From: Fimbriiglobus sp.
GTDB taxonomy: Bacteria > Planctomycetota > Planctomycetia > Gemmatales > Gemmataceae
Length of the DNA: 42,338 nt
Direction of reading: 5' to 3'
Assembly (NCBI GenBank): GCA_025351325.1
Contig: JANXWE010000157.1
Span: 1-42,338, forward strand
Numbering within the stretch: position 1 is the first letter of the stretch; every line of letters begins with the position of its first letter. The position numbers and the translations under genes are program-made. Below, one piece after another: positions 7,664 to 34,132 of the stretch. The notes below the pieces were generated by a model that was not told where the DNA came from, searched no databases, and saw only the letters and a program-made list of their open reading frames with translations.

Positions 7664-10573
7664 TCAGTCGGTCGCCAATCGCTGCAGCGGCTTGCGCAAC
7701 TTCGCCCAGACTTCCGGCAGCAATCCGTAGGCGAGTGCCAAATACTGGATCGGGTGCAAGGCCCGTTTGCGGCTCCCCTCTTGCATTTGCAAGCGGCAGG
7801 CGCTGCACTCGGTGCTGCCGAACAGCACCCGCGGGCGCTTCAATTCGTCGAGCATCGGCCGGCCGGCCACCAACGAATCGGCGTAGTTCGCGGCGCGCAG
7901 GCCATAGGTACCGGCCATGCCCGAGCAGCTTTTATCGATGGTGTAGACTTCCAAACCGGGGATCAAGCCGAGCAGTTTCGGCCCGGCCGGCTCCCCGCCG
8001 AGCGCCTTCACGTGGCACGGCACATGGTGGCCGATTTGCAAGTCGAGCCGCTGCGGAAAGTCGGTGCGCAAACTCCCCGCTTCGTGCAACTTCCACAAAA
8101 AATCTCCGAGTTCGTGGGTCTGCGCGGCCACCAACTTCGTATCCACGTCGTCGAAGAGATCGAGGTAATCCTGCGACAGCGTGAGCGCGGCCGTCGGCTC
8201 GGAACAGACGATCTGATAGCCGGCACGGGCCAAGTCCACCAGTAACCGGACGTTGCTGCCGGCGATCTCACGAGCGGTGTCGATGTCGCCCTGCGTCAGC
8301 GCCGCCACCCCGCAACCGTTCTGGCGCGGGGGAACGTAGACGTCGAAACCGTGGTGCTTCAGCACGGCGACGGTTGCTTCGCCGATCAGCGGATCGTTGT
8401 GGTTGGCAAAGGTATCGACGAAGTAAGCGATCTTCGGTCTGTCCGAATCGACGTGCGGGCGGCGGTTCCAACCGGCCGTCTTGGCCCGCCGCAAGAACGT
8501 CCGGTGCGTGAACTTCGGCAGCGTCCTTTTGCGGCTCAGTCCGAAGGCCCGTTCGATAATCCAACGCGCCGCCGAGTTCCCGAGGATGCGGTTCGTACTG
8601 AACGCGAAGTTCCCGGCCAGCGTCATTAGCCCTTCGATGCGGGCCAACGCCCAATCCCCACGGTCGAGACCGTGTTCGGCGTGATACGCCGCTTTCGCTT
8701 CCAACGCCAGTTTGGGGATATTCACCTGACTCGGGCATTCACTCCGGCACATTTTGCAGTTCACGCACTGCTCGGCGATTTCGCGGGCCTCGGCGCTCGA
8801 CAGCCCCTCGCCGTCGTCTTGCAGCAACCGGTACAAGTTGGCTTGGGCACGAGGGCTGGATGCTTCGCGCCGGGTGGCATGGAACGTCGGACACATCCGC
8901 GTCGGCGGTGTCTTCGTCCGGCAATCGCCGCAGCCGTTGCACCGGCCCGCTTCCACGTCCGGCGCCGTTGCCGTCCAGAGAAACAGCGGCTTGCGCGGAG
9001 TTCTAATAACCGGTTCGCGCAGGGGCCAGGCCGCGCGGCTCGGATCGGGGCCGACGATCTTGCCGGGGTTCAGCAAGTTCTTCGGATCGAAGATCCGCTT
9101 CAACTCCGCAAACGCGGGCACCAACTCGCCGTACTGCTTCACGACCCACGGTGTGCGGGCCAAGCCGACGCCGTGCCGCGTGCTGATGGTGCCGCCGAGA
9201 CTGATCGCCAGATTGAAGATTTGATCGGCGATGGCCCACATTTTCAGTCGATCCTCTGCGGAATCGAGATCGATCAACGGCCGGGCATGAACTTGCCCCG
9301 TGAGGGCGTGAATCAGAAACGAACCGGTGAGATCTTGCCGACGCAGCAATTCAGCGACCCCGGACACGTAGCGCAACAGGCTCTCGGCGGGTACGGCCGT
9401 GTCTTCGACGAACGCCAGCGGTCGGGCCTTCCCCGAGTTCGCATACACCCCGGATGTCGCCGCAGTCCCGAAACGAGCGACTTCGGCCAAGGCGTCCGGG
9501 GAGGTCGCCGGTTCGATCAGTTCTTCGACGGTGAAGATATCCCGCACCAGCCGAATCGCCGCGTTCAACTGACTACGTGCCGTCCGAACCGAATCGGCTT
9601 CGACACTCAGGATCGCAATGGCCGCTGTGTTCGCCGGGAGTGCAATTGTCGTGCGGGCCATGGCGCTGCGCGACAGCGATAATAGCCGTTGATCGAGCAC
9701 ATCACACGACACGACCCCCTCGGCGACGCGGAGCGACAATCCCGCGCGGAGGGCCTCGTTCAGCGTCTCGAAGGCCAACACCGTGGCCCCGCAACCGCGG
9801 GCGAGTGGGATCGTCTTCAGTTCGGCTTCGGTGGTGATCGCGAGCGTTCCCTCGGTGCCGATGAGCAACCGTTTGAGGTGCAATCCGGCCGCCGTGGAGA
9901 CATCGTGAAGAACGTAGCCGCAATGGTGGTAATTCGTATGCGGTCGCTGCGTCTGAATCAGTTCTTGATTCACCGAAAGCAGGGCCGACGTCTGCGATCG
10001 GATTTCCATCGTCCGGACGTCGTGGGACGTGATCCGGCTCGGGCCGAGTGACGCGGGGGTGCCGTCGTCCCAAACGACGTTCAACGATTGGACGACGTCG
10101 CGGAAGTAGCCGTGAACCGAAGCGTTGGCACCGCTGGCATTGGTGGCGATCAAACCGCCGATGGTGGCGGTCGCCGCACTCGCCGGATCGGGGCCGATGC
10201 GGCGACCGACTTTTGCGAGCGCCGCGTTTAACCGACTCAGAGTCACGCCGACTTCGACGCGCACCGTGTCGCCACGGATGGCCAATTCTTGGAAGTTCTG
10301 CGCGAGGTCGATCATGATCCCCGGCCCGAGCGATTCCCCGGCCAAGCCCGTCCCGGCCCCACGTGCCATCACCGGCAGATTGTTGGCATGGCAGTAGCGC
10401 ACCAACACGGCAAGGTCGTCGGCATCAGCGGGAATGGCCACCCCGTGCGGCATGATTTGGAAAGGGCTGGCGTCAGTGGAATAGAGCGTTCGCGTTGGAT
10501 CATCGAAGAGCAGTGCCCCGCGGAACTCGCCGCGCAGGTCGTCTCGGATTTGTTGGTCGGAGGTCACAGACAC
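7664..10573 (-). CDS. FAD-binding / (Fe-S)-binding fusion oxidoreductase (glycolate or D-lactate dehydrogenase type)
   Basis: About 969 residues if the GTG at 10573 is used. This start is uncertain: GTG 10567 is also possible, and a farther start would run under the neighbouring toxin gene. The N-terminal half is a GlcD-type FAD domain, with PVMARGAGTGLAGESLGPGI and IGPDPASAATATIGGLIATNASGA near the FAD site. The C-terminal half is GlpC/LutA-like, with two 4Fe-4S clusters (CNGCGDCRTKTPPTRMCP and CVNCKMCRSECP) and cysteine-rich CCG-type segments (QNGCGVAALTQGD, SCSGMAGTYG). Such fusions oxidise a 2-hydroxy acid and pass electrons to the respiratory chain on the inner face of the membrane. Substrate cannot be assigned. 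It converges with the ROK kinase and diverges from the toxin-antitoxin pair. Confidence 0.88.
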   Translation of the reverse strand: MSVTSDQQIRDDLRGEFRGALLFDDPTRTLYSTDASPFQIMPHGVAIPADADDLAVLVRYCHANNLPVMARGAGTGLAGESLGPGIMIDLAQNFQELAIRGDTVRVEVGVTLSRLNAALAKVGRRIGPDPASAATATIGGLIATNASGANASVHGYFRDVVQSLNVVWDDGTPASLGPSRITSHDVRTMEIRSQTSALLSVNQELIQTQRPHTNYHHCGYVLHDVSTAAGLHLKRLLIGTEGTLAITTEAELKTIPLARGCGATVLAFETLNEALRAGLSLRVAEGVVSCDVLDQRLLSLSRSAMARTTIALPANTAAIAILSVEADSVRTARSQLNAAIRLVRDIFTVEELIEPATSPDALAEVARFGTAATSGVYANSGKARPLAFVEDTAVPAESLLRYVSGVAELLRRQDLTGSFLIHALTGQVHARPLIDLDSAEDRLKMWAIADQIFNLAISLGGTISTRHGVGLARTPWVVKQYGELVPAFAELKRIFDPKNLLNPGKIVGPDPSRAAWPLREPVIRTPRKPLFLWTATAPDVEAGRCNGCGDCRTKTPPTRMCPTFHATRREASSPRAQANLYRLLQDDGEGLSSAEAREIAEQCVNCKMCRSECPSQVNIPKLALEAKAAYHAEHGLDRGDWALARIEGLMTLAGNFAFSTNRILGNSAARWIIERAFGLSRKRTLPKFTHRTFLRRAKTAGWNRRPHVDSDRPKIAYFVDTFANHNDPLIGEATVAVLKHHGFDVYVPPRQNGCGVAALTQGDIDTAREIAGSNVRLLVDLARAGYQIVCSEPTAALTLSQDYLDLFDDVDTKLVAAQTHELGDFLWKLHEAGSLRTDFPQRLDLQIGHHVPCHVKALGGEPAGPKLLGLIPGLEVYTIDKSCSGMAGTYGLRAANYADSLVAGRPMLDELKRPRVLFGSTECSACRLQMQEGSRKRALHPIQYLALAYGLLPEVWAKLRKPLQRLATD

Positions 10574-10584
10574 ATGATATGGTG

Positions 10585-10613
10585 CTGACGCGGTTTCCCC
10601 ACAGGAGTAGAAT
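10585..10613 (+). promoter_or_regulatory. candidate sigma70-type promoter of the toxin-antitoxin operon
   Basis: A -35-like CTGACG at 10585-10590 and a -10-like TAGAAT at 10608-10613 are separated by exactly 17 bases. Transcription would begin just upstream of the GAGGGA ribosome binding site of the toxin gene at 10635. The call rests on consensus alone, and planctomycete promoter consensus is poorly defined. Confidence 0.4.
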
Positions 10614-10634
10614 GAACCACCATGAGGGACTCCA

Positions 10635-10994
10635 ATGGACGCGGATGAACTCCTGTCCTTTTTGACTCTGGTCGAATTCGACCAAGAGTGGAATGATCTC
10701 GGGTTTGACGACCGCGATCTGGCACGGCTCCAGATCAGAATCATGGCGAACCCGGAAGCCGGCACGGTAATTCCTCAGACGACCGGCGTCAGGAAGATCC
10801 GCTTCGCCCGCAAGGGTGAAGGAAAATCTGGGGGTGTGCGGGTCTGTTACGCGCACTTTCCGATCGTAGGCATCGTCTTGTTGGCGACGGTTTATGCGAA
10901 GAACGAGAAGGCCAATGTAAACGCTGAGGCCCGGAAACGGATGCGCGAGATCGTGGCCCGATTTCAGCGGCGAATCAAGGGAGCACAGTCATGA
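10635..10994 (+). CDS. higB: RelE/HigB-family toxin
   Basis: 119 residues, with GAGGGA just upstream of ATG 10635. The core TTGVRKIRFARKGEGKSGGVRVCYAHF, then VGIVLLATVYAKNEKANV, is the pattern of HigB/RelE-type toxins ('G.RK.RF....GKSGG.RV.Y', then 'L..vyaKnek..ls'). These are ribosome-dependent mRNA endonucleases that slow translation when the antitoxin is lost. The toxin gene comes first and overlaps the antitoxin gene by 4 bases (ATGA), the usual HigBA order. It lies immediately beside, and points away from, the FAD/Fe-S oxidoreductase. The family assignment is strong; activity of this copy is not shown by the sequence. Confidence 0.85.
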   Translation: MDADELLSFLTLVEFDQEWNDLGFDDRDLARLQIRIMANPEAGTVIPQTTGVRKIRFARKGEGKSGGVRVCYAHFPIVGIVLLATVYAKNEKANVNAEARKRMREIVARFQRRIKGAQS

Positions 10995-12516: not shown

Positions 12517-15500
12517 TCAACTGGACGCCGTCAAGATGTCGTTCCCCTGTCGGATCGCCGGCATTCCTTCGCCATTAGAGTCCACGACGGTATCGACGTC
12601 TTCTTCGAGAACCGGTGTGAGAATCACCACATCCGACTTCTTACGAAACAGTCGACCAAGACCATTCGTGATGTCATCCCAAATCGAATACGCCACCGGG
12701 GTGATGAGCAAGCTTAACAGCAGCGACAGCATCTGACCGCCGAGGATCACCTTGGCCATGCTGGCGCGGGCGCTGGCCCCCGGCCCCTCGCCGGTGGCGA
12801 TCGGAATCATCGCCGCCACGAGCATGATCGTGGTCATCAGGATCGGCCGGAGGCGGGCCTCGTTCGCCCCGAGAATTGCTTCGGTTCGCGGCAGCCCTTT
12901 CGCCCGCAGTACGTTCGTATAGTCGACTTGCAAAATGCCGTTCTTCTTGACGATGCCGAAGAGCATGAACAGGCCGATCATCGCGTAGATGTCGAGCGGC
13001 GTCTGCAAAAACCAGAGCGAGACCAACGCGAACGGCACCGTCAACGGCACGGCCATGAGGATCGTCAACGGGTGGACGAAACTCTCGAATTGGGCCGCGA
13101 GGATCATGTACATGAACAAGAATGCCAAGCCGAACGCGAGCGCGAAGTTCGAGTTCGAGTCGGCCATCAACTTCGCCTCGCCGAGTTGCTCGGTTCGGTA
13201 GTCGGTCGGCATCTCCAAGGAATCGACCTTCGCGTTGATGACGGGCAGCGACTTGCCGAGCACGACGCCGGGGGCGAGGTTGCAGGTCACCGTCACTTGG
13301 CGCTGGCGGTTGTACCGTTCGATGGTGGCCGGGCCGCGCTCCGCTTGCAGTTCGGCGACGTTTCGCAGTTCCACGAGTTGCCCGGTCGCACTCGGCACCG
13401 TCAACGAGGAAATCGCTTCACGACGGTTGCGGTTCTTCAAGTCGGCTCGCAACCAAATGTCGTACTGATCGGGGCCATCCTTGAACTTGCTGATCGGCTC
13501 ACCGCCGACGAGCACCCCGAGCGTCGAGGCGATGGCTTGCACGTTCACGTTCTGGTCGCCGGCCTTGCTCCGGTTGATGATCACTTGCAATTCCGGGGTT
13601 CGCACGGCGGCGTTCGTGTCCACATCGGTGTAGTCCGGGCTGGCCCGCATCCACTTCACGATCTCGGCGGCGTAGGCGTCGAGCTTGTCGCCGTCCGGTC
13701 CGCGGATGCTGAGTTCCACCTGGGCGTTCTTGAACGCGCTGCCGCCGAACAGTTTCACTTCCTGCACCACGATCCGGAGATCGGGGTACGGGGTCATCGC
13801 CGCGCGGGCGTCGGCCATCGCGTCCTTCTGCGAATACTTCCGGTCGCCCAAATCGACCATGCGGCAATAGATGGTGACACGAGTGACATCGCCTTGTCCT
13901 TTACCGATCCGACCGCTCGTTTCGCCGATGGTGGTGAAGACGTTCGTGATGCCGCGCACGGTGGCCAACTTCGTTTCGAGTTCCGCACAGATCGCGCTCG
14001 CCTCTTGAAGCGTGGTTCCCTCTGGCAGTGTCCCGGCCACTTCGAATTCGCTTTGATCGTCCTTCGGCACGAAGTCCGAACCGACCGCTTCAAAGAGTGT
14101 TGGTGTGGTCATGAGTACCAGCAAAGCGATGCCGACTACGACCACCCGGTGCCAACCGTGACGGCCGCCGAGCGACCACCCGAGTACGCCGAGGTACCGC
14201 CGGGTGACCCAGCCCCAGACGCCCCGCTGCGAGTGGCTCCGGCCCTCTTTCTTGCCCGCGTTCTTGGGGGCACGCAAGAAATGGGCACACAACATCGGTG
14301 TGAGGGTGAAACTGACCACCATCGACAGGATGATCGAGAACCCGACGACGAACCCGAAGCTGTTGAAGAACCGGCCGACCTGCCCGGACATGAACGCGAT
14401 CGGGGCGAACACCACCGCCAGCGAGAGCGTCGTCGCCAGCACCGCCAGCGCGATCTCTTTGGTGGCGACACTGGCCGCTTCCAACGGCGTACGTCCGTAA
14501 TCTTCCATGTGCCGGAAGACGTTTTCGAGCACCACCACCGCATCGTCGATGACGATGCCGACGGCGAGGATGAGGCCGAGCAGGGTCATGCTGTTCAGGC
14601 TGAAGCCCATGAGATCCATCAGGGCGAAAGTGCCGATGACACTCGTCGGTACGGCCAGTGCCGCGATGATGGTCGTGCGCCAGTCGCGGATGAACAGCAG
14701 CAGCACGGCCGAAACGAGGATCGACGCCAGCAGCAGGTGGAACTTCACCTCGTCGATCGAGCCTTTGATGAACTTCGATTGATCGCGGATGATCTCGACG
14801 CGGATGTCGGCAGGGAGCGTCGGTCGAATCAGCTCGAGCCGGGCCTTCACCGCCTCGGCGACCTTGACGGTGTTTCCGCCCGACTGCTTCTGGACGATCA
14901 AACTGACCGCGATGTCGCCGTCGAGCCGGCTGAGGCCGCGCGGCTCTTCGATCCCGTCTTCGACACCGTTGCCCGCACCCGCGCCGACTTCGCGCAGTTG
15001 GATCTGATGGCCGTTCCGCGTGGCGAGAATCAGGCTCTCGAAGTCGCGGACGTCCTTGACGCGGCCGACGGTGCGGAGGCCTTCTTCGCGCCGCCCTTGA
15101 TCGATCTTCCCGCCCGGCAGTTCGAGGTTCTGGTCGGCGAGCGCGCGGCGAACATCGAGCACCGACAGTTCGCGGGCACGGAGTTTGTCCGGATCGACGG
15201 TGACGTTGATGGCCCGTTGTTGACCACCGACCAGGATGACCGCCCCGACGCCGTAGACGTTGCCTTCGATGTCTTCCTTCACCAGCTTCTTGGCGATCTC
15301 GGTGATCTCACGCAGGCTGCGCTTCCCGGAAATGGCGATGGTGACGACCGGCGTGGCATCGAGATTGAATTTCTCGACCTTGGGGAAATCAGTACCGGCC
15401 GGCAGTTGCCCCTGAACGAGGGTCATCTTGTCGCGCAGCTCTTGGGCCGCGATGTCGCCGTTCTTTTCGAGCTTGAAGCCGACGACGATTTGCGACACGC

Positions 15501-15756
15501 CTTCCCGCGTGGTGCTGCGCAGTTCGTCGATCCCGGACACCGTGTTCACCGCCTCTTCGACCGGCTTGGTCACCGCCGATTCCATCTCGTCGACGCTCGC
15601 CCCTTTGAGGGTGGTCGTGACCACCACCACCGGCACATCGACGTTCGGAAACAGCTCGACGCCCAACCGCGAGTACGAGGCAATGCCCAACACCACCGGC
15701 GCGAGGATGAACATCAGCGTGAAGACCGGCCGACGAATGCAAATATCCCAAATCAT
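12517..15756 (-). CDS. RND-family efflux transporter, inner-membrane permease (AcrB/HAE1 type)
   Basis: 1079 residues from ATG 15756, chosen because the classic permease start MIWDICIRRPVFTLMF begins there. RND permeases take drugs or other amphiphiles from the membrane or periplasm and exchange them for protons. Visible hallmarks are FPNVDVPVVVVTTTLKGAS after TM1, the TM4 segment GIVIDDAVVVLENVFRH with the two proton-relay Asp residues, a second half repeating the fold (QSEFEVAGTLPEGT), and the late helices FGIVKKNGILQVDYTN and ARLRPILMTTIMLVAAMIPIA. Length and paired organisation match a complete transporter. It follows the adaptor gene in one leftward operon controlled by a TetR gene. An outer-membrane TolC partner is not in the window. 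Substrate class is not predictable, though HAE1 rather than heavy-metal type is favoured. Confidence 0.93.
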   Translation of the reverse strand: MIWDICIRRPVFTLMFILAPVVLGIASYSRLGVELFPNVDVPVVVVTTTLKGASVDEMESAVTKPVEEAVNTVSGIDELRSTTREGVSQIVVGFKLEKNGDIAAQELRDKMTLVQGQLPAGTDFPKVEKFNLDATPVVTIAISGKRSLREITEIAKKLVKEDIEGNVYGVGAVILVGGQQRAINVTVDPDKLRARELSVLDVRRALADQNLELPGGKIDQGRREEGLRTVGRVKDVRDFESLILATRNGHQIQLREVGAGAGNGVEDGIEEPRGLSRLDGDIAVSLIVQKQSGGNTVKVAEAVKARLELIRPTLPADIRVEIIRDQSKFIKGSIDEVKFHLLLASILVSAVLLLFIRDWRTTIIAALAVPTSVIGTFALMDLMGFSLNSMTLLGLILAVGIVIDDAVVVLENVFRHMEDYGRTPLEAASVATKEIALAVLATTLSLAVVFAPIAFMSGQVGRFFNSFGFVVGFSIILSMVVSFTLTPMLCAHFLRAPKNAGKKEGRSHSQRGVWGWVTRRYLGVLGWSLGGRHGWHRVVVVGIALLVLMTTPTLFEAVGSDFVPKDDQSEFEVAGTLPEGTTLQEASAICAELETKLATVRGITNVFTTIGETSGRIGKGQGDVTRVTIYCRMVDLGDRKYSQKDAMADARAAMTPYPDLRIVVQEVKLFGGSAFKNAQVELSIRGPDGDKLDAYAAEIVKWMRASPDYTDVDTNAAVRTPELQVIINRSKAGDQNVNVQAIASTLGVLVGGEPISKFKDGPDQYDIWLRADLKNRNRREAISSLTVPSATGQLVELRNVAELQAERGPATIERYNRQRQVTVTCNLAPGVVLGKSLPVINAKVDSLEMPTDYRTEQLGEAKLMADSNSNFALAFGLAFLFMYMILAAQFESFVHPLTILMAVPLTVPFALVSLWFLQTPLDIYAMIGLFMLFGIVKKNGILQVDYTNVLRAKGLPRTEAILGANEARLRPILMTTIMLVAAMIPIATGEGPGASARASMAKVILGGQMLSLLLSLLITPVAYSIWDDITNGLGRLFRKKSDVVILTPVLEEDVDTVVDSNGEGMPAIRQGNDILTASS

Positions 15757-15768
15757 TGATTCACTCCC

Positions 15769-15845
15769 GGCGAGCCGAACTCCGTCAGGAGTCGGGTGAG
15801 TCCTCAAATGCAATTCACCCGACCCCTCACGGGGTACGGCTCGCC
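15769..15845. repeat. 31-base-arm palindrome between adaptor and permease genes
   Basis: The arms are 15769-15799 and 15815-15845. They pair at 27 of 31 positions around a 15-base loop. The outer end is GGCGAGCCG / CGGCTCGCC and the inner end is GTCGGGTGA / TCACCCGAC. It fills nearly the whole gap between the adaptor stop codon and the permease start. It may be a repetitive REP-like element, an RNA hairpin that lowers permease expression relative to adaptor, or both. Confidence 0.8.
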
Positions 15846-17083
15846 TAACGCACTGCCACTTTGCTGCCATCGACCACTTGGCTGAATCCGCTGGTCAGTA
15901 CCGGTGCCCCGGGGGGGAACGTCCCCTTCACTTCGATCCAATCTTTTTCGCGGATGCCCACTTCCACCGGCACCGCCTGGGCGTGATCGCCCACGTGCAT
16001 AAAGACTTTGTTCACCCCGGCGAACGACACGAGTGCTTGGGGAGGGATGGTGACCAGTTTGAGTTCGTCGCCGAGAATCGATACTTGGGCGAAGCCGCCG
16101 GGCTTCAACTTGCCCGCCAAGTTGGGCACTTCGACCTCGACTTGGAACGTCCGGTTGAGCGGGTCGATGGTCGGGTTGACCCGGGCCACGCGGGCGGCGA
16201 ACGGTTTATCGCCGTACGCATCCACGCGGACTTCCACCGGTTGACCGACCCGCACCTCGGCGGCGTGGCGCTCCGGCACCGTGACCCGGAGTTTCAACAG
16301 GTACGGCATGACCAAGCGAAACACGTTGGTGATCGGCAGGCTCTGCACCCGTTCCCCGGTCGACACCATCCGCTGGGCCACGGAGTAACGCAGCGGCGGG
16401 GCACTCGGCCCCAGCAGCGCCGCCCAAGCCACCCAGCCGGCCGGTTCGGGCACCCGCAATTCGGCATCGCCCAGCCGCTGTTCGGCGATGGCCAACGCCA
16501 CCTGACGCTGCTTGGCCCGCGCGTACGCGGCGTTCGCCCCGCTGATCGCATCGCGGTTGCGGGCCTTGGCGACGTCGTAGTCGAGCTTCATCTGCAAGTA
16601 TTCGAAGTCCGAAATGGCCTTCGACGCTTGCAACTTCGGGAACGGCTCGAAGGTCTTTTCGGCCTTCACGAAATTGATCTTGGCGATGATCACGGCGTCG
16701 TTGGCGTTCACGTCGAAATGGTCGAACGTTTCCTTGGTGAGGTTGAGCGCCCGCATCTCGGTGTCGAGTGCGGCTTGCGCTTCGGCGACCCCGAGTTTGA
16801 GATCGACGGTGTCGACCTCCAAGAGCACCGCACCCGGCAACGCCATGTCCCCGACATCGTAATAAATGGCCCGAATGCGACCGTCGACTTTGAGCGCCAA
16901 GGGAACGTCTTCTGTGCCGTTCAATGTGCCCGTGCCCAACACGCGCTGTTGGTACGAACGGACTTCGATCGGTGCCACCGTAATCGGGATCGGTGGCACC
17001 TCTTTGGTGGCCGTGCTCACGGCCGACTTCGGCGAGCAGCCGGTCAGCAGGATCAACGGGAGTAGCATCAACCAGCGTCGCAT
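15845..17083 (-). CDS. RND efflux periplasmic adaptor lipoprotein (HlyD/AcrA type)
   Basis: 412 residues from ATG 17083, chosen for the GAGGGATTCC ribosome binding site just upstream and the lipoprotein signal that follows (MRRWLMLLPLILLTGCSPK, lipobox LTGC). The mature protein would be lipid-anchored and would link the permease to an outer-membrane channel. Adaptor features are the first lipoyl half-motif VDGRIRAIYYDVGDMALPGAVLLEVD, a long helical hairpin (about residues 100-205), a beta-barrel segment (LKLRVTVPERHAAEVRVGQPVEVRVDA) and the membrane-proximal part (LVTIPPQALVSFAGVNKVFMHV). Between hairpin and barrel a hydrophobic stretch (GWVAWAALLGPSAPPLRY) interrupts the usual second lipoyl half. 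It is co-oriented with tetR (19-base gap) and the permease. Confidence 0.9.
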   Translation of the reverse strand: MRRWLMLLPLILLTGCSPKSAVSTATKEVPPIPITVAPIEVRSYQQRVLGTGTLNGTEDVPLALKVDGRIRAIYYDVGDMALPGAVLLEVDTVDLKLGVAEAQAALDTEMRALNLTKETFDHFDVNANDAVIIAKINFVKAEKTFEPFPKLQASKAISDFEYLQMKLDYDVAKARNRDAISGANAAYARAKQRQVALAIAEQRLGDAELRVPEPAGWVAWAALLGPSAPPLRYSVAQRMVSTGERVQSLPITNVFRLVMPYLLKLRVTVPERHAAEVRVGQPVEVRVDAYGDKPFAARVARVNPTIDPLNRTFQVEVEVPNLAGKLKPGGFAQVSILGDELKLVTIPPQALVSFAGVNKVFMHVGDHAQAVPVEVGIREKDWIEVKGTFPPGAPVLTSGFSQVVDGSKVAVR

Positions 17084-25839: not shown

Positions 25840-26782
25840 TCACCGTTTGTCGCGCCAACACTACGGCACCCAGTGCGGGGTCGGTGACAACTTCCACCGT
25901 GCCCGGTGATACGCCACACTCGGCGAGTGCCCGCAACAGCAGGAATCGATACTCCGCATTGTTCGTCAGCACGCCCCCGGCCAGCGCGACGGGCAGATTG
26001 TCCGTGGGCAACCCGTTCGTTTTCACAGCTCCCGCAGCGGTGCGGGCAAGTTCCGTCGCTTCTTCCGTGACGATCCGCGTAGCCACGGGATCACCTTGCT
26101 TGGCCGCTTCAAGTACCAGCGGAGCCAAGCCCGCGATGGCGGCACGATCCCAACTTCCGCGGTAGACAGCGGGGATCAAATCCGGGGCTTCATTCAGTTT
26201 CATCGTCTCGACGAAGCGATGAACCAATACAGTCGGCAGATCAATGCCATCGAACGCTCGGCAGGCCGATTGCAGCCCACGTACTGCAATTCGGTACGCA
26301 CTGCCCTCGTCGCCAAGGAGGTGGCCCCAGCCGCCACAGCGACCCAGTTCCCCAGCGGGGGTTTTGACGAACGCGATCGAACCGGTGCCGGCGATGACCG
26401 CCAAACCCCAACCGTGGGCCGTTCCTGCGGCGAGTAAGAGCGTGGCGTCGTTGGCGACGCGGACTTCACGAGCTAGACCGACCCGTGCGGCCCAGGCGTG
26501 GATGACATCCAACCCTTCTTGACGATCGATCCCCGCGAGACCCAAGCAGACGGCGGCGACGCGGCCACGGGGGACATTCGCCGAAAGGAAGGCGTTGTCG
26601 ATGGCGTCATCGAGCGCGCGGAGTGCGGGGTCAACGCCGATGGCTTGGATGTTCGAGGGGCCACCCGACCCGCGACCGAGTACGGCACCCGTCGCCGCAT
26701 CGGCTAACAACGCGACCGTGTTCGTACCGCCACCGTCGATTCCGAGCACCCAATTTGCGTGTTCTGGTCGGCGCACCATCAT
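25814..26782 (-). CDS. BadF/BadG-type ATPase, probably an N-acetylglucosamine-kinase-like sugar kinase
   Basis: 322 residues from ATG 26782, which overlaps the stop of the upstream protein kinase gene by 4 bases (ATGA); a second ATG follows at once. The fold is ASKHA: phosphate-1 loop NWVLGIDGGGTNTVALLAD, a catalytic area LGLAGIDRQEG and VANDATLLLAAG, phosphate-2 loop LAVIAGTGSIAFV, and adenosine motif VALAGGVLTNNAEY. The segment CGGWGHLLGDEGSAY is typical of N-acetylglucosamine kinases of this family rather than benzoyl-CoA reductase activators, and no iron-sulfur cysteines are present. It likely phosphorylates an amino sugar salvaged from the wall. Translational coupling with a Ser/Thr kinase-like protein is unusual. 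Confidence 0.85.
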   Translation of the reverse strand: MMVRRPEHANWVLGIDGGGTNTVALLADAATGAVLGRGSGGPSNIQAIGVDPALRALDDAIDNAFLSANVPRGRVAAVCLGLAGIDRQEGLDVIHAWAARVGLAREVRVANDATLLLAAGTAHGWGLAVIAGTGSIAFVKTPAGELGRCGGWGHLLGDEGSAYRIAVRGLQSACRAFDGIDLPTVLVHRFVETMKLNEAPDLIPAVYRGSWDRAAIAGLAPLVLEAAKQGDPVATRIVTEEATELARTAAGAVKTNGLPTDNLPVALAGGVLTNNAEYRFLLLRALAECGVSPGTVEVVTDPALGAVVLARQTVTTESSNIR

Positions 26783-28218
26783 GGACGTTTCTCGTGAGAC
26801 TTCTTTCGATCCACTAACTCCGTCAGTCCGACTGCGGATAACTTCGACCACCGCTCCGCACCGGGAATCTTGTCGTCCAAAGCGATCACGGCTTGCCAAG
26901 TGTGAGCCGCCTCGGCGGTATCGCCGACTTGGGCGAATGCCAGCCCACGCAGGTACAACCGCTCACTTTCGCAAGAATAGTCGAGCTTAGCACCGTCATC
27001 AATGGCCCGACGCAACTTCCGACGATCCGACAATTTGATGCGAGCCGCACGGACTTCCTCGGTGTATTCACCGGGGTATTTAGTCGAAAGTGGCTCGAGG
27101 TACTCGTCCCAGGCCCTGTCCCAATCGGCCGGGTTGTCCGACGCGAGCAGCGGCTGCGCGGAGGTGTACAACTCGGTCGCGGTCGGGCGCGGCCAAAACC
27201 AGAGGAGCAACGCCACCGCCACCAGGGCACAGAACAGTGGGATCACCACTTTCGGGCGCGACATCAACGGCTTCGGACGTTCCCAACTCTCCGTTTCCGT
27301 GGCCGAGTTGTCATCCACCAGCGCGGCCATGGTGTCGGTGCCATCGGTGACGGGCCAGTACACCGTCTCGCCTTTGCGTTCGGCCTTACCGCGGATCTGC
27401 TGCAGGATTTCGAGCACCGTCGCGGCGGTCGGGGGCCGACGGCTCGGGTCTTTATTCAACAGCACGCAGACGAGTTCATCGAACTCGTGCGGCAGTTTGG
27501 TCACAAATTGAATCGGCCGATCCGGGAGCACGTAGCAGTGCTTGTGCATGAACTCGGCGGCCGTGGCGGCGGCGTACGGCGGTCGGCCGCACAACAGCGT
27601 GTAGAGCAGCCCACCCAACGAATAGAGGTCACTGCGACGTGTCAGCGGCTTACCTGTGAAGAATTCCGGCGCCAAGAATGCGATGGTTCCGAACGGTTCC
27701 GCGGCGAGCGTGAGCGGGTTCAGGGGAAACAATTTCCCGACGCCGAAGTCGGTGACTTTCAAAACCCCTTCCGGGGTGAAGTGGCAGTTCGCCGGCTTCA
27801 AGCCCCGATGCAAGATACTCCGGTGGTGCCCGTGCTTGAGGGCCCGCGCCGCTTGCACGGCGATGCTCAACACCACGTCGCGCCAGTTCAAACCGGGGTC
27901 GTCGGGCCGTTTCAATGTTCGCAACGCCACTTCGAGATTCGTTCCACTCACGAATTCGGACGCGTAATAAGCCACACCTGCGTGGACGCCCGCATCGTAA
28001 TACCGGGCGATGTTCGGGTGCTTCAACCGCTGGAGTGTCAGCATCTCGCCCGGGAATTTTTTCAGAAATTCCGGGCGGCGAGCCAGTTCGTGATCGAGAA
28101 GCTTCACGGCCGCCAAACGGCTGGGATCGTTGACGGCGGTCGCGCGGAACGTCGTTCCGAGCGAACCCCGGCTGAGTTCGACTCCCAAAATCCAGTTTCC
28201 GATTCGTGATCCGGTCAT
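26779..28218 (-). CDS. membrane Ser/Thr protein kinase-like protein, catalytic Asp replaced (possible pseudokinase)
   Basis: 479 residues. An Hanks-type kinase domain spans about 1-280, a transmembrane helix lies near 323-342 (VVIPLFCALVAVALLLWFW), and an outer region with TPR-like helices follows (about 345-479). The glycine loop is weak (ELSRGSLGTTF). The ATP lysine is Lys39 (AAVKLL) and TDFGVGK holds the metal Asp157. The catalytic loop reads ILHRGLKPANCHF: Gly139 replaces the Asp of HRD (codon GGC, read on the leftward strand at 27804-27802). LAPEFFTGKPLTRRSDLYSLGGLLYTLLCGRPPY is otherwise canonical. Loss of this Asp usually kills phosphotransfer, so a scaffold or sensor role is plausible. 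It is coupled to the sugar kinase gene downstream and diverges from cbiX. Confidence 0.88.
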   Translation of the reverse strand: MTGSRIGNWILGVELSRGSLGTTFRATAVNDPSRLAAVKLLDHELARRPEFLKKFPGEMLTLQRLKHPNIARYYDAGVHAGVAYYASEFVSGTNLEVALRTLKRPDDPGLNWRDVVLSIAVQAARALKHGHHRSILHRGLKPANCHFTPEGVLKVTDFGVGKLFPLNPLTLAAEPFGTIAFLAPEFFTGKPLTRRSDLYSLGGLLYTLLCGRPPYAAATAAEFMHKHCYVLPDRPIQFVTKLPHEFDELVCVLLNKDPSRRPPTAATVLEILQQIRGKAERKGETVYWPVTDGTDTMAALVDDNSATETESWERPKPLMSRPKVVIPLFCALVAVALLLWFWPRPTATELYTSAQPLLASDNPADWDRAWDEYLEPLSTKYPGEYTEEVRAARIKLSDRRKLRRAIDDGAKLDYSCESERLYLRGLAFAQVGDTAEAAHTWQAVIALDDKIPGAERWSKLSAVGLTELVDRKKSHEKRP

Positions 28219-28297: not shown

Positions 28298-28678
28298 ATG
28301 CAAGCCATTTTGCTCATCGCCCATGGTAGTCGCCGGGCGGAAGCCAACGCCGATTTGGAGCACGTGGCCAGTGCCCTCCGACAACGGGCCGACGCCCCAT
28401 TCGTGCAATGTTCTTACCTCGAACTGGCTTCGCCGACGATCGAAGAAGGCGGGGCGGCCTGCGTCGAACAGGGTGCCACCGAGATGGTGATGTTACCGTA
28501 TTTCTTGTCGCCGGGCATTCACGTCCGCGAAGACTTGATCACGGCACGTGCGGCGCTGTCCGAACGGTTTCCCCGAGTCGTGTTCCGTTTGGCCGAGCCA
28601 CTCGGTCGACACCCGATGCTGCTGACCATCGTCGAGGAACGCATCCGTGAAGCGAACGCGAATGAAGCGAAATCGTAA
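28298..28678 (+). CDS. cbiX: single-domain CbiX-type sirohydrochlorin chelatase
   Basis: 126 residues, the length of short (single-domain) CbiX proteins, which pair as homodimers to make one active site. The N-terminal ILLIAHGSRRAEAN carries the conserved metal-binding His9, and YFLSPGIHVREDL carries the second conserved His. VEQGATEMVMLPYFL is the family's central strand. Such enzymes insert Co or Fe into sirohydrochlorin for cobalamin or siroheme synthesis in the cytoplasm. No other tetrapyrrole gene is in the window. Because CbiX and SirB are hard to separate by eye, the metal is not assigned. AGG precedes the ATG. It converges on the vWA gene with a 15-base gap. Confidence 0.88.
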   Translation: MQAILLIAHGSRRAEANADLEHVASALRQRADAPFVQCSYLELASPTIEEGGAACVEQGATEMVMLPYFLSPGIHVREDLITARAALSERFPRVVFRLAEPLGRHPMLLTIVEERIREANANEAKS

Positions 28679-28693
28679 GCAATCTCGTGCCGG

Positions 28694-30142
28694 TTACGGC
28701 TTGCTCATTCCGACGAAACTTCCGTCGTTCTCACGGGCGAGTGCCCAAAGGAACGCCCCCACTTCTGGGCTTTCGTAAAAGAAACCAATGGCATTGATCC
28801 GGACTTTTCGGTTGTCATGCAACGGGTTCCAATTCGACTTGAGCATGCTGAGGAGGTGCTTGGACAGGACCTCGACGCGCTGATTGTCCGGGAGCGTTTT
28901 TTCCTGCTGCGGGGACAGGCCGACGCCGCTGGTCGGCAAGCCATCCGAGAACAAATAAATGGTGTCGAGACCTGTCGAGCGGAGTCGGAAGCTGAGGTCG
29001 AACCCCTCGTACAAGTTCGTGTCGCCACCGGGTGTCGTCACCTTCAACGCATCGGTGACTTTCTTGACCGACTCCTCGCCTTTGTAATCGAGCCACTCCC
29101 GGCTGCCGAAGAGGTACTTGGCCTCGCGCGAGAAGATCACCACTTGGTACTTCTCGAGGGCGGGGTTGCTCTTCATCACTTTGCCGACGGTGTCGATGAC
29201 GCCTGGCCATTTGTTCGGGTCGGGTGTCTTCTCATCGATCAATTTCATGCTGCCAGAAATATCGATGAGGAACACAACATTCTTCCCGCTCATGGCGACG
29301 CCGGCGAATTTGTTCTCGCTGTCGATCCGCAAGCGGTCGAACTTGTCGGCGAGTTTACGATTCTCCGAACGCAGCTCCACGATGGTCGCGTTGGAATCAT
29401 CGGTGCCCTTTTGCATGTTCTTGAGCTTTGATCGCGCCGCCGATAATTCCGCCTCCGACTTTTTGGACATCGCCAAGGCCGAGGATGCTTCCTTGGCGTC
29501 GACCTGGAGCGAGCGGTACTTGGCGTCCAAGTCCGAAAGCCGGTCGTCGGCCTGTTTCTTCTGCGAATTCAACGTGTCGAGATCCTTCTGCCGTTCGCGC
29601 AGCAGCTTCTGGAGCATCGCCTCGGCACTCGACGCACTCGATAATTGCGCGTTCAAATCCGTCGCGGTTTTGTCCTTCTTCTTCATCTCGGCGAGTGCCG
29701 CAGCGGCTCGTTCTTCCATTTTGGCCACGTCGCCCCGGATGCCGACTAAGTCGTCGTTGGCGGCGGCTAAGCGATTCTTGGCATCTTTCAAATCGGACGT
29801 GGCAACGGCCACGGCTTTGCGGCTGTTGGCGAGGTCGGCGTTGGCCCGGATCACATCTTGATCTTTGCTGTCGCGTTCGGCGGTCATCACCGCGAGCGAC
29901 CCGCGCAAGTCTTGGATCGTCGCGTTCAGCACGCTCTTGGTTTTGCCGAGGTCATCCAAGGTGGCCACGAGTTCGTTCTTGGTGCGGCTCAAATCTTGGA
30001 GGGCATTCCGTGCCTTCTTGCTCTGCTCGGTGGAACTCAGCGATTCCAACACCCACAACAAAATCACACAGCCGAGAGCACAGCAAAACACGTCGAGCAT
30101 CCACATGCTCACGAGCGTCGGCTGTTTGTGTCGGGTTCGCAT
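28694..30142 (-). CDS. single-pass coiled-coil vWA protein with ExbD/MotB-like membrane segment
   Basis: 482 residues from ATG 30142, preceded by GGGGAAGGATAAACTC. The N-terminus is short and basic, then one membrane helix, LVSMWMLDVFCCALGCVILLW, carries Asp17 at its start. This is the place of the proton-binding Asp in ExbD, TolR and MotB ('..D......'). Residues about 40-277 are a long Ala/Lys/Asp/Leu coiled coil. From about 290 a von Willebrand factor A domain begins with the MIDAS motif DISGSM (Asp294), followed by TPGGDTNLYEGF and LFSDGLPTSG. The topology places the coiled coil and vWA domain outside the cytoplasmic membrane. It is the last gene of the operon with the Hsp70-like and ExbB-like genes. 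I infer it is the stator B-subunit, with vWA in place of the usual peptidoglycan-binding domain. Confidence 0.85.
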   Translation of the reverse strand: MRTRHKQPTLVSMWMLDVFCCALGCVILLWVLESLSSTEQSKKARNALQDLSRTKNELVATLDDLGKTKSVLNATIQDLRGSLAVMTAERDSKDQDVIRANADLANSRKAVAVATSDLKDAKNRLAAANDDLVGIRGDVAKMEERAAAALAEMKKKDKTATDLNAQLSSASSAEAMLQKLLRERQKDLDTLNSQKKQADDRLSDLDAKYRSLQVDAKEASSALAMSKKSEAELSAARSKLKNMQKGTDDSNATIVELRSENRKLADKFDRLRIDSENKFAGVAMSGKNVVFLIDISGSMKLIDEKTPDPNKWPGVIDTVGKVMKSNPALEKYQVVIFSREAKYLFGSREWLDYKGEESVKKVTDALKVTTPGGDTNLYEGFDLSFRLRSTGLDTIYLFSDGLPTSGVGLSPQQEKTLPDNQRVEVLSKHLLSMLKSNWNPLHDNRKVRINAIGFFYESPEVGAFLWALARENDGSFVGMSKP

Positions 30143-30146
30143 GAGT

Positions 30147-31352
30147 TTATCCTTCCCCACGCGTGGCGGGCAACGCCGACTTCAACGCGATCTTACCGAT
30201 GCTGTGGGCCGGCAAATGCGGGGTCGCCATCGGTTTTTCAAACGGGAGGATGCTGTCGAGGTGCAACTTCGGCAGCGTCCCTTGCAACCAGCGCGGCAAG
30301 ATTGCGGCCACGGCTTCGGCGGCGGCGTTCTGAGGCAGGATGCTGACGGAGGTCTGCTCGGGAGAGTGCTTGTAGATTTTCGCCGCCAACCCCGGCAAGC
30401 GACCGGCCGCGTGCGACAGCCAAACCGCTTGGGGCGGCGACTTGATCGCGGACGACAACAGCAGCTGTTGCAACCCCTCCGCGGCGAGTTTCACCAACCC
30501 CGTGCAATAGGCTTCGACTTGCTCCGCCGCATGGGCGAGGTCTTGGAACCAATGTTCCCCGCGAATTTGCATCGTGGCCCGCTGCCCCGTCCGCGTCTGC
30601 TCCAACAAGGTGTCGAGTTGGTCGTACATCCCTTGTTCGGCCTGTGCGGAATCGCGCGGATCACGCCGACAAATGCGGACGCAGTGGTCGGCCATTCCGT
30701 CGAGCAATCGGTTCTTCCAAAGTCGCAGCGACACTTGTGGCCAGAAGCCCGAGCCGAGAATCCGCACATCGGCGGGGCCGACTTGCAACAACGTGCCACT
30801 CAGGGCGAATTCATCGACATCGACGAACAGAACGCTGGCCGGGCCGCCGAGGGTACTGGCCCGGTGGGCACCGAGTGCCAGGGGTGCCACGGCAGAGCCA
30901 CGGATCGGCAAGCGACTGGCGTGGGCCAACTCGAGGGCGGTGCGAACTTGGGCGGTCGACAAGTACACCGGCAACGTCAACGCGGAGGAATCGGTTTCGG
31001 CCGAGATCGGCTTCACCAATCTGTCGAACGTGTGCTTGGTGGCGAGTTCCGGCGTGAGCACGTGTCGGCCACCGCGCCACTCATGAGGCAACCCGAGCGA
31101 GCCGAGGAAATTGCTACAGACCAAATGGGGCGATAACCGGCAGAGTGAGAGCGCTCCGACACCGACTTTCGGCACCCGTTGATCGAGCTGCAACGCCAGG
31201 GGCAATTCGTCGCCAACGTCGTCGAGCAAGATCGGGCGCGTGCGGCCTTCGCCGGCCACCACGGCCCGCGCTCGGGTCGCGTTCAGGTCGATTCCCACGA
31301 GGCGAAAGGGGACTTCCACCACCGGCGATTTTTTCGTCAGCAATCCGAACAT
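30147..31352 (-). CDS. Hsp70/actin-fold (ASKHA) ATPase-like protein
   Basis: 401 residues from ATG 31352, preceded by GAGGTGGC. The start has a phosphate-1-like strand pair FRLVGIDLNATRARAVVAG. A second half begins ASVLFVDVDEFALSGTLLQ (phosphate-2-like), and a late VWLSHAAGRLPGLAAKIYKH is in the place of the adenosine motif. This order is that of Hsp70, actin and PilM-type proteins, but glycines of the loops are partly missing, so nucleotide binding may be weak. There is no signal peptide or membrane helix, so it is cytoplasmic. It lies between the ExbB-like gene (23 bases upstream) and the vWA gene (4 bases downstream), and so is likely an integral part of that system, perhaps a cytoplasmic scaffold or ATP sensor. 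Confidence 0.65.
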   Translation of the reverse strand: MFGLLTKKSPVVEVPFRLVGIDLNATRARAVVAGEGRTRPILLDDVGDELPLALQLDQRVPKVGVGALSLCRLSPHLVCSNFLGSLGLPHEWRGGRHVLTPELATKHTFDRLVKPISAETDSSALTLPVYLSTAQVRTALELAHASRLPIRGSAVAPLALGAHRASTLGGPASVLFVDVDEFALSGTLLQVGPADVRILGSGFWPQVSLRLWKNRLLDGMADHCVRICRRDPRDSAQAEQGMYDQLDTLLEQTRTGQRATMQIRGEHWFQDLAHAAEQVEAYCTGLVKLAAEGLQQLLLSSAIKSPPQAVWLSHAAGRLPGLAAKIYKHSPEQTSVSILPQNAAAEAVAAILPRWLQGTLPKLHLDSILPFEKPMATPHLPAHSIGKIALKSALPATRGEG

Positions 31353-31375
31353 GCCACCTCACGCGGGGAAACGGG

Positions 31376-32218
31376 TCAGCTTCGCCCAGCTACCACCAAC
31401 GACACGCCATCGTGCGGCTGCGGGTCGTACAGCCGCAACAGCAAATGCTCTTGGCAGTAGTCTTGGCAGTCGATCACAAGAGTCTCTTCGCTGCGTTGCA
31501 CACTGTGCAAAATATACATCAAAACCAAGCTGAGTGCGAGCGCCACGAAGGTGCAATCGAAGGCCGTGCCGAGGTGGTCTTTCACTTGGTCGATGTATTT
31601 GTCGATGTAATCTTGAACGTCCTGATCTTTCGGCCGGCTCAAGCCCATGGCCCCCGCCAAGCCGCGCACGGTGCCGAGAAAGCCGACGGCCGGGATCGCC
31701 CAGGCCAAGTAATTCACGGTGCCCATGGTGGCGACGAACCGCGATTGTTCGACGTCGGCTTGGTTGCGGACGACTTCCGCCACATCCGGGCCGCTCTTGC
31801 TAATCGCATATTTACCCAAGCCGAGCCGGATCATGTTCGCCAGAATGGTCGAGCCGTCGCGGGCCATCACCTGATCGACTTTCCGGGCCAAGGGCCGGGC
31901 ATCTTCCGGGAGAATCCGCGCTCCTTCGTCCGTCGGCAAGAGATCGTAACCGAAAGCGGTGCGTTGCCGACGCACTTCGAAGTAGCGCCGCATCAGAATG
32001 AGTCCCGACCAAGTGAAACAGACGTAACAGACGGCCTGTTCGGGGCCAACTATCAGTTTACCAAGGCGTTGCGGAGTCCAGTTGTTCAAGAATGCCGTGC
32101 GCGATTCTTCGGTGCCGGTCATCCGCCAGAGGGGGATCACCACGCCACCCACGAGCAACAGGGCGACCCCGAGCAAGAGCCACTCGCGGGACGATCGTTG
32201 GGAATTGCGCAGCGACAT
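31376..32218 (-). CDS. MotA/TolQ/ExbB-family proton channel protein
   Basis: 280 residues from ATG 32218 (an upstream in-frame TTG gives 7 more). Helices are visible near residues 12-32, 60-80 (QAVCYVCFTWSGLILM), 165-190 and 220-240. The signature AIPAVGFLGTVRGLAGAM matches the 'P.lGLLGTV.Gm' of ExbB and TolQ, and LGTAFDCTFVALALSLVLMYI matches the last helix that lines the ion path. These proteins form pentamers around a dimer of ExbD or MotB and turn the proton gradient into motion. It is the first of three leftward genes, with the Hsp70-like and vWA proteins. No exbD, tolR, tonB or OmpA-like gene is nearby, so the vWA protein is the likely partner. Confidence 0.85.
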   Translation of the reverse strand: MSLRNSQRSSREWLLLGVALLLVGGVVIPLWRMTGTEESRTAFLNNWTPQRLGKLIVGPEQAVCYVCFTWSGLILMRRYFEVRRQRTAFGYDLLPTDEGARILPEDARPLARKVDQVMARDGSTILANMIRLGLGKYAISKSGPDVAEVVRNQADVEQSRFVATMGTVNYLAWAIPAVGFLGTVRGLAGAMGLSRPKDQDVQDYIDKYIDQVKDHLGTAFDCTFVALALSLVLMYILHSVQRSEETLVIDCQDYCQEHLLLRLYDPQPHDGVSLVVAGRS

Positions 32219-32680: not shown

Positions 32681-34132
32681 TCAGCGCTGCAATTCTCGTT
32701 CGAGTCGGGCCACCAAATCTTTGGCCAGCCAAACCCGCTCGCCGACGGTGAGCTTTTCATCCTTCGCCAACCAGGCCCGAACCTTCTTCTCCGCGGCGAC
32801 CGCGGTGCTGTGGGTCTTCGCACCGAAATGCTTGGCAATCTGGCCGTAGGTGGCGACGGTGTGCTTCCGGCACAAGAATATCGCCAGCATCCGCGGATGG
32901 CTCACAGCCCAGGAACGTGCCTTCGATTGCAGCGTCCCCGATGCCAGCCGCAGCACCGCACAGACGGCGTGGTCAACATCCGATACCGTGATGGCGCGAA
33001 CCGTGTGCCGCAGCAAGTCGCCCAGAGCCTCCTGCACCAACTTCTGGTCGATGGGCTGCCCTGTCACCTTGGCGACGTGGCGAACGCTGTTGATGGCCCC
33101 TTCGAGTTCGCGGACGTTCCCGGGCAGGTTCTTGGCCAAGTACTTCAGCACCGCTTCGGGGATGAGCGGGTGTCCGCCGGTCGATTTCTTCCGCAGAATT
33201 TCCAACCGCGTGCTGTCGTCGGGTGGTTGCAGGGACCAAGTGGCTCCGCCCAACAGACGATCCACCAATTCGGGCATCAATTCTTCGGCCAACCGGGGGT
33301 GGCAGTCGGTGGTGACCACCACTTGCAAACCGTCGGCAATCAGGGCGTCGAGGGTGTGGATGAACTCTCGCTGGGTGCCCGGCTTGGTGGCGAGAAAATG
33401 TAAATCGTCGAGCAGCAGGGCGAAGCACTCGCGGAACTGCTTGCGAAAGGCACCGTGTTTCTCGAATCGGCTGGCCTGAACGAAGCGGGTCGTGAATTCT
33501 TCAGCGGTGATGTAGCAAGGCCGCGAGTCGGGCCACGCCTTGCGCATGCCGGCGTAGATGCCTTCGAGCAGGTGCGTCTTGCCAGTGCCCACCGGCCCGT
33601 GGATCACCAGCGGATTCGCCCCTTCGCCCGGCTCTTCGACCGCGCTGATGGCCGAAGCATGAGCCACCCGGTTGCACGAACCGGTGACGAAGTCGCTCAA
33701 GCTCTTCCAACGTCGGCCCTTGCCATCAGTCTTCACCGGCTTTGAGTTTTTACCACGCGATGCTGGTGGAGGAAGCAAGTCTTCGCCGAAGATGTGCGGC
33801 TTGCCACGATCCTTCGACTTGGGTGCCACCGGCGTACTCGCCGGTTTGGCGTCGGCTTCGGCCTGGTTCGGAAACAGCGCGGCATCGACAACAAACTTCA
33901 CGGCCGTCGCCCGGCCATAAACGGTTTCGGCAGCAGATCGCACCGCTTCGCCGAAGGTCTGTTCGAGCCACTCTTGGAATTGATGACTGGCCACGACCAC
34001 GAGCAAGTCCCGACCCGCCGCCACGAACTTCGCGTGATCGTGAAACCACATCTGGAAGCGCGGGCCGCTGATCCTTTGGATCAGCGCCGCTTCCATGCGG
34101 ATGGCCAGTGATTCCGACGGCGGTTGCGCCAC
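32681..34132 (-). CDS. dnaA: chromosomal replication initiator DnaA
   Basis: 483 residues from GTG 34132 (an ATG at residue 13 is an alternative). Domain I lies at about 10-90 (FQMWFHDHAKFVAAGRDLLVVV) and a Pro/Lys-rich linker at 90-140. The AAA+ domain has Walker A HGPVGTGKTHLLEGIY near 178-192 and Walker B ALLLDDLHFLATK near 238-250, followed by the sensor VVVTTDCHPRLAEEL. Domain IV ends with RKHTVATYGQIAKHFGAKTH and STAVAAEKKVRAWL, the DNA-binding signature, with a diverged 'THSTAV' in place of the usual 'DHTTV'. DnaA-ATP opens the origin. No dnaN, recF or gyr genes flank it, so it stands apart from the classic origin cluster. A second dnaA paralog elsewhere cannot be excluded. Confidence 0.85.
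   Translation of the reverse strand: MAQPPSESLAIRMEAALIQRISGPRFQMWFHDHAKFVAAGRDLLVVVASHQFQEWLEQTFGEAVRSAAETVYGRATAVKFVVDAALFPNQAEADAKPASTPVAPKSKDRGKPHIFGEDLLPPPASRGKNSKPVKTDGKGRRWKSLSDFVTGSCNRVAHASAISAVEEPGEGANPLVIHGPVGTGKTHLLEGIYAGMRKAWPDSRPCYITAEEFTTRFVQASRFEKHGAFRKQFRECFALLLDDLHFLATKPGTQREFIHTLDALIADGLQVVVTTDCHPRLAEELMPELVDRLLGGATWSLQPPDDSTRLEILRKKSTGGHPLIPEAVLKYLAKNLPGNVRELEGAINSVRHVAKVTGQPIDQKLVQEALGDLLRHTVRAITVSDVDHAVCAVLRLASGTLQSKARSWAVSHPRMLAIFLCRKHTVATYGQIAKHFGAKTHSTAVAAEKKVRAWLAKDEKLTVGERVWLAKDLVARLERELQR

Follow-up and report, generated by a model that had tools for sequence, protein, structure and literature searches.

A Candidate Proton-Driven Motor with a vWA Arm and an Hsp70-Derived Partner Protein in Fimbriiglobus and Distant Bacterial Lineages

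Known Motors and the Present Locus

In the rings built by proteins of the TolQ, ExbB and MotA type, which are joined by an Asp-bearing helix of a partner protein, proton flow is coupled to motion. We know of no motor of this superfamily with a subunit of the Hsp70 type. The locus described here lies in a stretch of 42,338 nucleotides from the planctomycete Fimbriiglobus sp. (contig JANXWE010000157.1; the whole stretch is hereafter called the window). It is an operon of three genes encoding an ExbB/TolQ-like protein, a protein with the fold of the Hsp70 nucleotide-binding domain (NBD) and a protein composed of a transmembrane helix, a coiled coil and a vWA domain. These proteins probably make up a motor driven by the proton-motive force, with five ring and two axle copies (5:2), in which the vWA protein would provide the force arm and the Hsp70-like protein, as a pseudo-Hsp70, the cytoplasmic regulator.

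The closest described systems consist of a TolQ-like pentamer and a vWA protein that serves as the proton-binding axle without TolR (Mol Biol Evol 2025, msaf138, PMC12204202). They were derived from gene neighbourhood and AlphaFold3 models, in which the Asp is placed in a threonine ring; the vWA genes of this family, found in Proteobacteria and Verrucomicrobia, mostly occur as heterologous pairs, which is usual and not strict (PMC12204202). Hsp70, DnaK, ASKHA and kinase are unmentioned in the text of that paper (PMC12204202). The half of the system made of the ring and the vWA axle is already published. A sequence-only reading of the window had considered a vWA end together with an Hsp70-like gene to be an unfamiliar arrangement; this no longer applies to the vWA-ended TolQ motor and still applies to its Hsp70-like partner. 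The pseudo-Hsp70 subunit and its spread appear to be the new part, the chaperone-like partner being apparently undescribed. In the open-access literature, we found no account of a motor of the TolQ type that has a partner of the Hsp70 type, an absence that is not proof.

Like the motors published in 2025, the operon combines a TolQ-like ring protein with an Asp in the transmembrane helix of the vWA protein, and no TolR/ExbD gene is found in it. It differs from them in the single vWA gene, the long coiled coil and the Hsp70-like gene inserted between the tolQ-like and vWA genes. Pairing of vWA genes is not seen in the order of the window (Gemmatales), whereas the proteobacterial type of the operon has it (vWA1 and vWA2). 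TolQR-TolA and ExbBD-TonB share with the present system the ExbB/TolQ fold (Z up to 14.8), the threonine motifs and the Asp in the partner helix. Unlike in these systems, the partner here ends in a vWA domain, the ring protein has an extra N-terminal helix, and the operon contains no TolA/TonB gene. The single N-terminal transmembrane helix with an invariant Asp resembles the ExbD/TolR axles, but a sequence relation to them was not found. The MotAB flagellar stator has a four-transmembrane ring protein, an Asp in the axle helix and the 5:2 logic that we infer here. It differs in that the present operon is without a peptidoglycan-binding end, and the fold score for MotA is below that for TolQ/ExbB.

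Gene Layout and Linkage

The three genes of the operon are as follows:
31376..32218, minus strand: ExbB/TolQ-like proton-channel protein, 280 amino acids, ATG start, four predicted transmembrane helices
30147..31352, minus strand: Hsp70 NBD-only protein (pseudo-Hsp70), 401 amino acids, ATG start
28694..30142, minus strand: transmembrane-helix/coiled-coil/vWA protein, 482 amino acids, ATG start; Pfam VWA_2 and a 36-homologue alignment

The three leftward genes had been recognized in the sequence-only reading, and their coordinates, their strand and the gaps of 23 bases (ExbB-like/Hsp70-like) and 4 bases (Hsp70-like/vWA) were confirmed. A GTG at 30160 is a possible alternative start of the vWA gene, the ATG at 30142 being the conserved one. 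The plasmid search gave no match to this gene.

Linkage was surveyed in 44 genomes of the order. Forty of them contain both the ExbB orthologue and the Hsp70-like gene, and the other four contain neither. The vWA gene, claimed earlier as the partner of ExbB, was detected in 39 of the 40 ExbB-bearing genomes under a check set in advance; in the remaining one the contig ends there. The three genes are contiguous, on the same strand and in the same order in 36 of the 44 genomes, counting the fused frame of G027. Because the starts of the open reading frames, the order and the strand are kept in 36 genomes, the arrangement is not due to chance. The arrangement in G030 is consistent with a contig break, fragmentation is seen in G008 and G021, and G039 has kept all three genes on separate contigs (C50, C36, C32). 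Across 37 loci of the order, no further neighbour is conserved in more than six.

In G027, the ExbB-like and Hsp70-like proteins are encoded by one uninterrupted frame (L053:7333-9357), possibly a natural fusion. Two products are still possible, since the frame contains an internal ATG where the second gene usually starts.

The TolQ/ExbB-Like Ring Protein

The first gene product had been assigned to the MotA/TolQ/ExbB type, and this assignment holds: Pfam MotA_ExbB (PF01618) matches it with 3.6e-7 and 30.4 bits against a curated cut-off of 22.9, and the top fold matches are TolQ/ExbB. In its AlphaFold2 model (predicted local distance difference test, pLDDT, 83.5), the 18 best VIA structural matches are TolQ/ExbB with Z of 12.5-14.8, while ZorA and MotA/PomA rank lower. 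The top match has a Z of 14.8 and 5.2 A across 212 residues; TolQ of A. baumannii is matched with Z of 14.3-14.4 and 3.2 A. Among the matches listed by Foldseek, only proteins of the ExbB/TolQ/MotA type were found. The following features were located in the gene:
32126..32182, minus strand: extra N-terminal transmembrane helix (residues 13-31), hydropathy 2.37, helix 9-34 in the AlphaFold2 model
31670..31672, minus strand: Thr183 of the GF-x-GT motif, predicted pore threonine
31550..31552, minus strand: Thr223 of the FD-x-T motif, second predicted pore threonine

The alignment of TolQ (8odt) to the protein begins at residue 41, so that the N-terminal helix is extra relative to TolQ/ExbB. Both threonines are invariant in 35 sequences of the order and in 80/80 sequences of the proteobacterial type. 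By motif matching, they are predicted to correspond to the ExbB/TolQ pore threonines of the last two transmembrane helices.

A ring of the ExbB/MotA type is also possessed by ZorAB, and the operon could be regarded as a Zorya-like anti-phage system in which a MotA-type ring and a MotB-type partner guard the envelope. The ExbB-like protein does have a weak PADLOC match to ZorA2 (7.1e-5), and ZorA occurs among the fold matches, below TolQ/ExbB. This explanation is extremely improbable. TolQ/ExbB fit the protein better than ZorA, no effector-like neighbours (zorC/D/E) are conserved, and the presence of the operon in 40 of 44 genomes lacks the patchiness of a defence system. Furthermore, the partner protein ends in a vWA and not in an OmpA-like domain, and it is accompanied by an Hsp70-like protein. 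Membership in the Zorya defence was rejected given the fold scores, the weakness of the PADLOC match and the lack of conserved neighbours.

The vWA Protein as a Candidate Axle

The third gene product was expected to be a single-pass protein with Asp17 in the helix, a coiled coil and a vWA domain with a metal-ion-dependent adhesion site (MIDAS). Hydropathy, Pfam and the alignment agree on this architecture, the parts of which are:
30047..30103, minus strand: sole transmembrane helix (residues 14-32), predicted trans-pore helix, hydropathy 2.34
30092..30094, minus strand: Asp17, candidate proton-carrying residue in the transmembrane helix
29318..30037, minus strand: predicted coiled coil of about 240 residues, matching only coiled-coil models, e.g., SMC and crescentin rods
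28697..29308, minus strand: C-terminal vWA domain with full MIDAS; D294-x-S296-x-S298, T375 and D400 invariant in 36 homologues

Pfam VWA_2 matches residues 289-401 with 3.7e-9, above the curated cut-off. Asp17, on the conservation of which the proposed role depends, is invariant in 36/36 homologues of the order, and the helix Asp is likewise invariant in 69/69 vWA1 and 57/57 vWA2 relatives. A helix motif is common to the vWA proteins of the order, of the proteobacterial type and of other planctomycetes; in the combined helix alignment, D and G are the only two invariant columns. The spacing between the Asp and the MIDAS amounts to 214-375 residues (median 287; 35 homologues). Identities of the vWA protein as SMC, Rad50 or Jet, suggested by Pfam, NCBIfam and PADLOC, were set aside as mere coiled-coil similarity. 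One match to the vWA gene was found in its own genome, and the loci of the order carry a single vWA gene, so the axle would probably be a homodimer there.

It could also be supposed that the vWA protein docks on the side of an ExbB/ExbD-type motor in the manner of TonB/TolA, the axle being an ExbD encoded elsewhere. Models of another published group of vWA transducers, which is present in planctomycetes as well, show such docking (PMC12204202), and the order possesses other ExbB paralogues. However, the Asp is invariant at the axle position, the helix has an FSLSFLDxxCCGxGA-type motif instead of SHLS, and no conserved ExbD-like gene adjoins the operon in 37 loci, which makes side docking very unlikely. 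With the vWA protein itself as the proposed axle, the proton-carrying Asp would be provided by its own helix and a separate ExbD/TolR would therefore not be needed.

A vWA domain 46% identical to that of the window is present in G026, a genome without the operon, where it follows a membrane Ser/Thr kinase in a fusion protein (L075:8402-10435).

The Hsp70-Like Middle Protein

Neither Pfam nor NCBIfam gave a family for the middle gene. An ASKHA fold had been attributed to its product, and the AlphaFold2 model (pLDDT 91.4) is indeed a complete Hsp70 NBD, which aligns over about 345 residues with Ssz1 (VIA Z 34.9) and DnaK (VIA Z 34.8). The profile of the family matches DnaK with an E of 7e-15. 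A PilM/GspL identity, suggested by the N-terminus, was dropped once the Hsp70 match had emerged.

The complete NBD fold is shared with Hsp70/DnaK and with the atypical Ssz1. In contrast to these proteins, the middle protein stops after the NBD and is without the substrate-binding domain, as seen in the model and the fold comparison, and its hydrolysis residues and phosphate loops are substituted. Nearly all 34 members of the family have other residues where DnaK carries Lys70, Glu171, the phosphate-2 GGGT and the adenosine GG. A further difference is the FHA domain of some members (7/34 in the order and 11/19 in the other set); the window's own protein is without it. The family has a signature of its own:
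30654..30668, minus strand: R229-x-D231-P-R233, pseudo-Hsp70 family signature; R229, D231 and R233 invariant and P232 nearly so in the 34-member alignment

The R-x-D-P motif is also found in the proteobacterial Hsp70-like members (consensus TRFDPLHxAxxEQ, R211 and P214 invariant), and the motifs of the two families align with each other in the profile-profile comparison. Since the protein is reduced to the NBD and its catalytic positions are substituted, a chaperone function is unlikely. The role of a housekeeping chaperone was rejected, as a complete DnaK is encoded elsewhere in the genome (C374, 646 amino acids, E 1.5e-119). The substitutions at Lys70, Glu171 and the phosphate and adenosine positions, together with the new R-x-D-P-R motif, lead us to read the protein as a pseudo-ATPase derived from the Hsp70 NBD.

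The motor core could be kept and the Hsp70-like protein regarded as a working nucleotide switch or as an assembly chaperone for the coiled-coil/vWA protein. This might be favoured by the clear NBD fold, by the ATP and Mg bound in the deposited structure of Ssz1 (4gni), one of the closest folds, and by the position of the gene directly before the vWA gene. We consider it unlikely in view of the nucleotide-site substitutions, the absent substrate-binding domain and the separate DnaK; moreover, the R-x-D-P motif, and not the nucleotide site, is among the most conserved parts of the protein.

Relatives beyond the Order

Profile searches within the phylum covered 294 genomes. In the planctomycete family f49, the genes are arranged as exbB, Hsp70-like with FHA, vWA1 and vWA2 (L106-L108). 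Families f33 and f61 have exbB and vWA alone with the same helix motif in six genomes (L165-L170), which indicates that the exbB and vWA pair is the core of the system.

Named genomes were scanned with an ExbB query alignment led by the f49 type, which yielded 80 loci in Gammaproteobacteria (Woeseiaceae, Microbulbifer, Marinibactrum, Aestuariicella), Desulfobacterota and Acidobacteriota. The module of ExbB, Hsp70-like and vWA proteins is thus not exclusive to planctomycetes. The order exbB, Hsp70-like, vWA1, vWA2 is complete on one strand in 54 of the 80 loci, and one more has a split vWA1; most of the other 25 are on short or cut-off contigs with a partial order visible. Among the sampled Gammaproteobacteria, the Hsp70-like gene occurs in 10 of 274. 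The Hsp70-like families of the order and of the proteobacterial type are homologous across 326 columns (hhalign E 1.8e-32). In the midpoint-rooted ExbB tree, vWA-bearing systems cluster apart from vWA-less ones, and within the vWA-bearing group the systems with the Hsp70-like gene cluster together with moderate support (93/87). By resemblance (TolQ-like gene, vWA pair, Proteobacteria), the proteobacterial loci are likely the genes of the Idiomarina set of the 2025 paper.

Upstream of the operon in Gammaproteobacteria, Desulfobacterota and Acidobacteriota, there are usually genes for lipoproteins, a protein kinase or a kinase-TPR membrane protein and a membrane protein with PEGA and formylglycine-enzyme-like parts (L181-L260, e.g., L247:3-6520). 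In these lineages, the operon and the upstream genes form a larger trans-envelope cluster.

Such a setting might suit a proton-gated sensor or signalling unit, in which the vWA domain acts as the receptor for an envelope ligand and the Hsp70/FHA side relays the signal into the cell, with no mechanical work. The FHA domain in part of the family, the Ser/Thr kinase genes adjoining the proteobacterial clusters and the closely similar vWA domain that G026 carries on a membrane Ser/Thr kinase are consistent with it. We hold it to be quite unlikely, since the two pore threonines and the Asp never vary, as is expected of a working ion path.

The profile searches within the phylum also gave many loci of a second motor-like operon of planctomycetes (L109-L125), in which an ExbB-like gene is followed by genes for two different coiled-coil proteins, with no vWA domain. 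Some of the helices of these coiled-coil proteins have an ExbD-like Asp, and the ExbB-like protein at L110 has an N-terminal zinc-ribbon-like segment.

Proposed Mechanism

In the proposed motor, the TolQ/ExbB-like protein would assemble into a ring of five subunits, and a pair of vWA proteins would serve as the axle, with their N-terminal helices passing through the ring. Asp17 would face Thr183 and Thr223 of the ring and carry the protons, the flow of which would rotate the axle or pull on it. The motion would then be relayed over the periplasm by the coiled coil as far as the vWA domain with its MIDAS, and this domain may bind a target in the envelope. On the cytoplasmic side, the pseudo-Hsp70 may gate, cap or scaffold the ring, and in some members it may receive phospho-signals via the FHA domain.

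Several points speak against parts of this scheme. The Hsp70-like gene is not beside the six two-gene systems, nor is it at L250 and L251 (exbB, vWA1, vWA2); its absence from those two-gene and proteobacterial loci means that it is not essential to the core. The ExbB family profile had zero matches among PDB sequences, so that the family placement rests on Pfam and the fold. The trans-pore helix gave no sequence match to ExbD/TolR/MotB in PDB or Pfam, although for a short helix a distant relation is possible. In addition, Hsp70-like proteins may bind ATP without hydrolysing it, which weakens a nucleotide-free role of the middle protein.

A broader proposal seems to us evenly balanced between right and wrong: the motor with its Hsp70-derived pseudo-ATPase would link Ser/Thr phospho-signalling, by way of the FHA domain and kinases encoded nearby, to a periplasmic vWA arm, and the module would be old, with a homodimeric axle in one lineage and a heterodimeric one in Proteobacteria and others. 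If the motor is as proposed, the small list of proton-driven 5:2 motors would grow by one that a repurposed Hsp70 domain regulates or accompanies in distant lineages, and the bacterial Hsp70 fold would have a non-chaperone job. Homodimeric and heterodimeric axles could be compared in like rings, and the three-gene set of the order and the four-gene set of Microbulbifer, Marinibactrum and Aestuariicella are defined sets for structure work and knockouts.

Neighbouring Genes in the Window

A DnaA-like gene lies directly upstream of the operon at 32681-34132 on the minus strand (Bac_DnaA 3e-39, Bac_DnaA_C 1e-13). Downstream, an open reading frame of 126 amino acids is found on the opposite strand at 28298-28678. 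The gene at 26779-28218 on the minus strand encodes a Ser/Thr kinase with one transmembrane segment and a weak TPR match. It was not counted as part of the operon, as kinases are near the operon in few loci of the order only, and its position is probably a coincidence.

Elsewhere in the window, the minus strand at 281-1978 encodes a GH3-family protein with a fold of the plant auxin-conjugase type (E 2e-63), here in a bacterial genome. A large protein with FAD-linked oxidase, 4Fe-4S and CCG domains, resembling a D-lactate dehydrogenase fusion, is encoded at 7664-10765 on the minus strand. The gene at 12517-15870, also on the minus strand, encodes an AcrB-type RND efflux permease, the closest plasmid-borne relatives of which are 33-37% identical.

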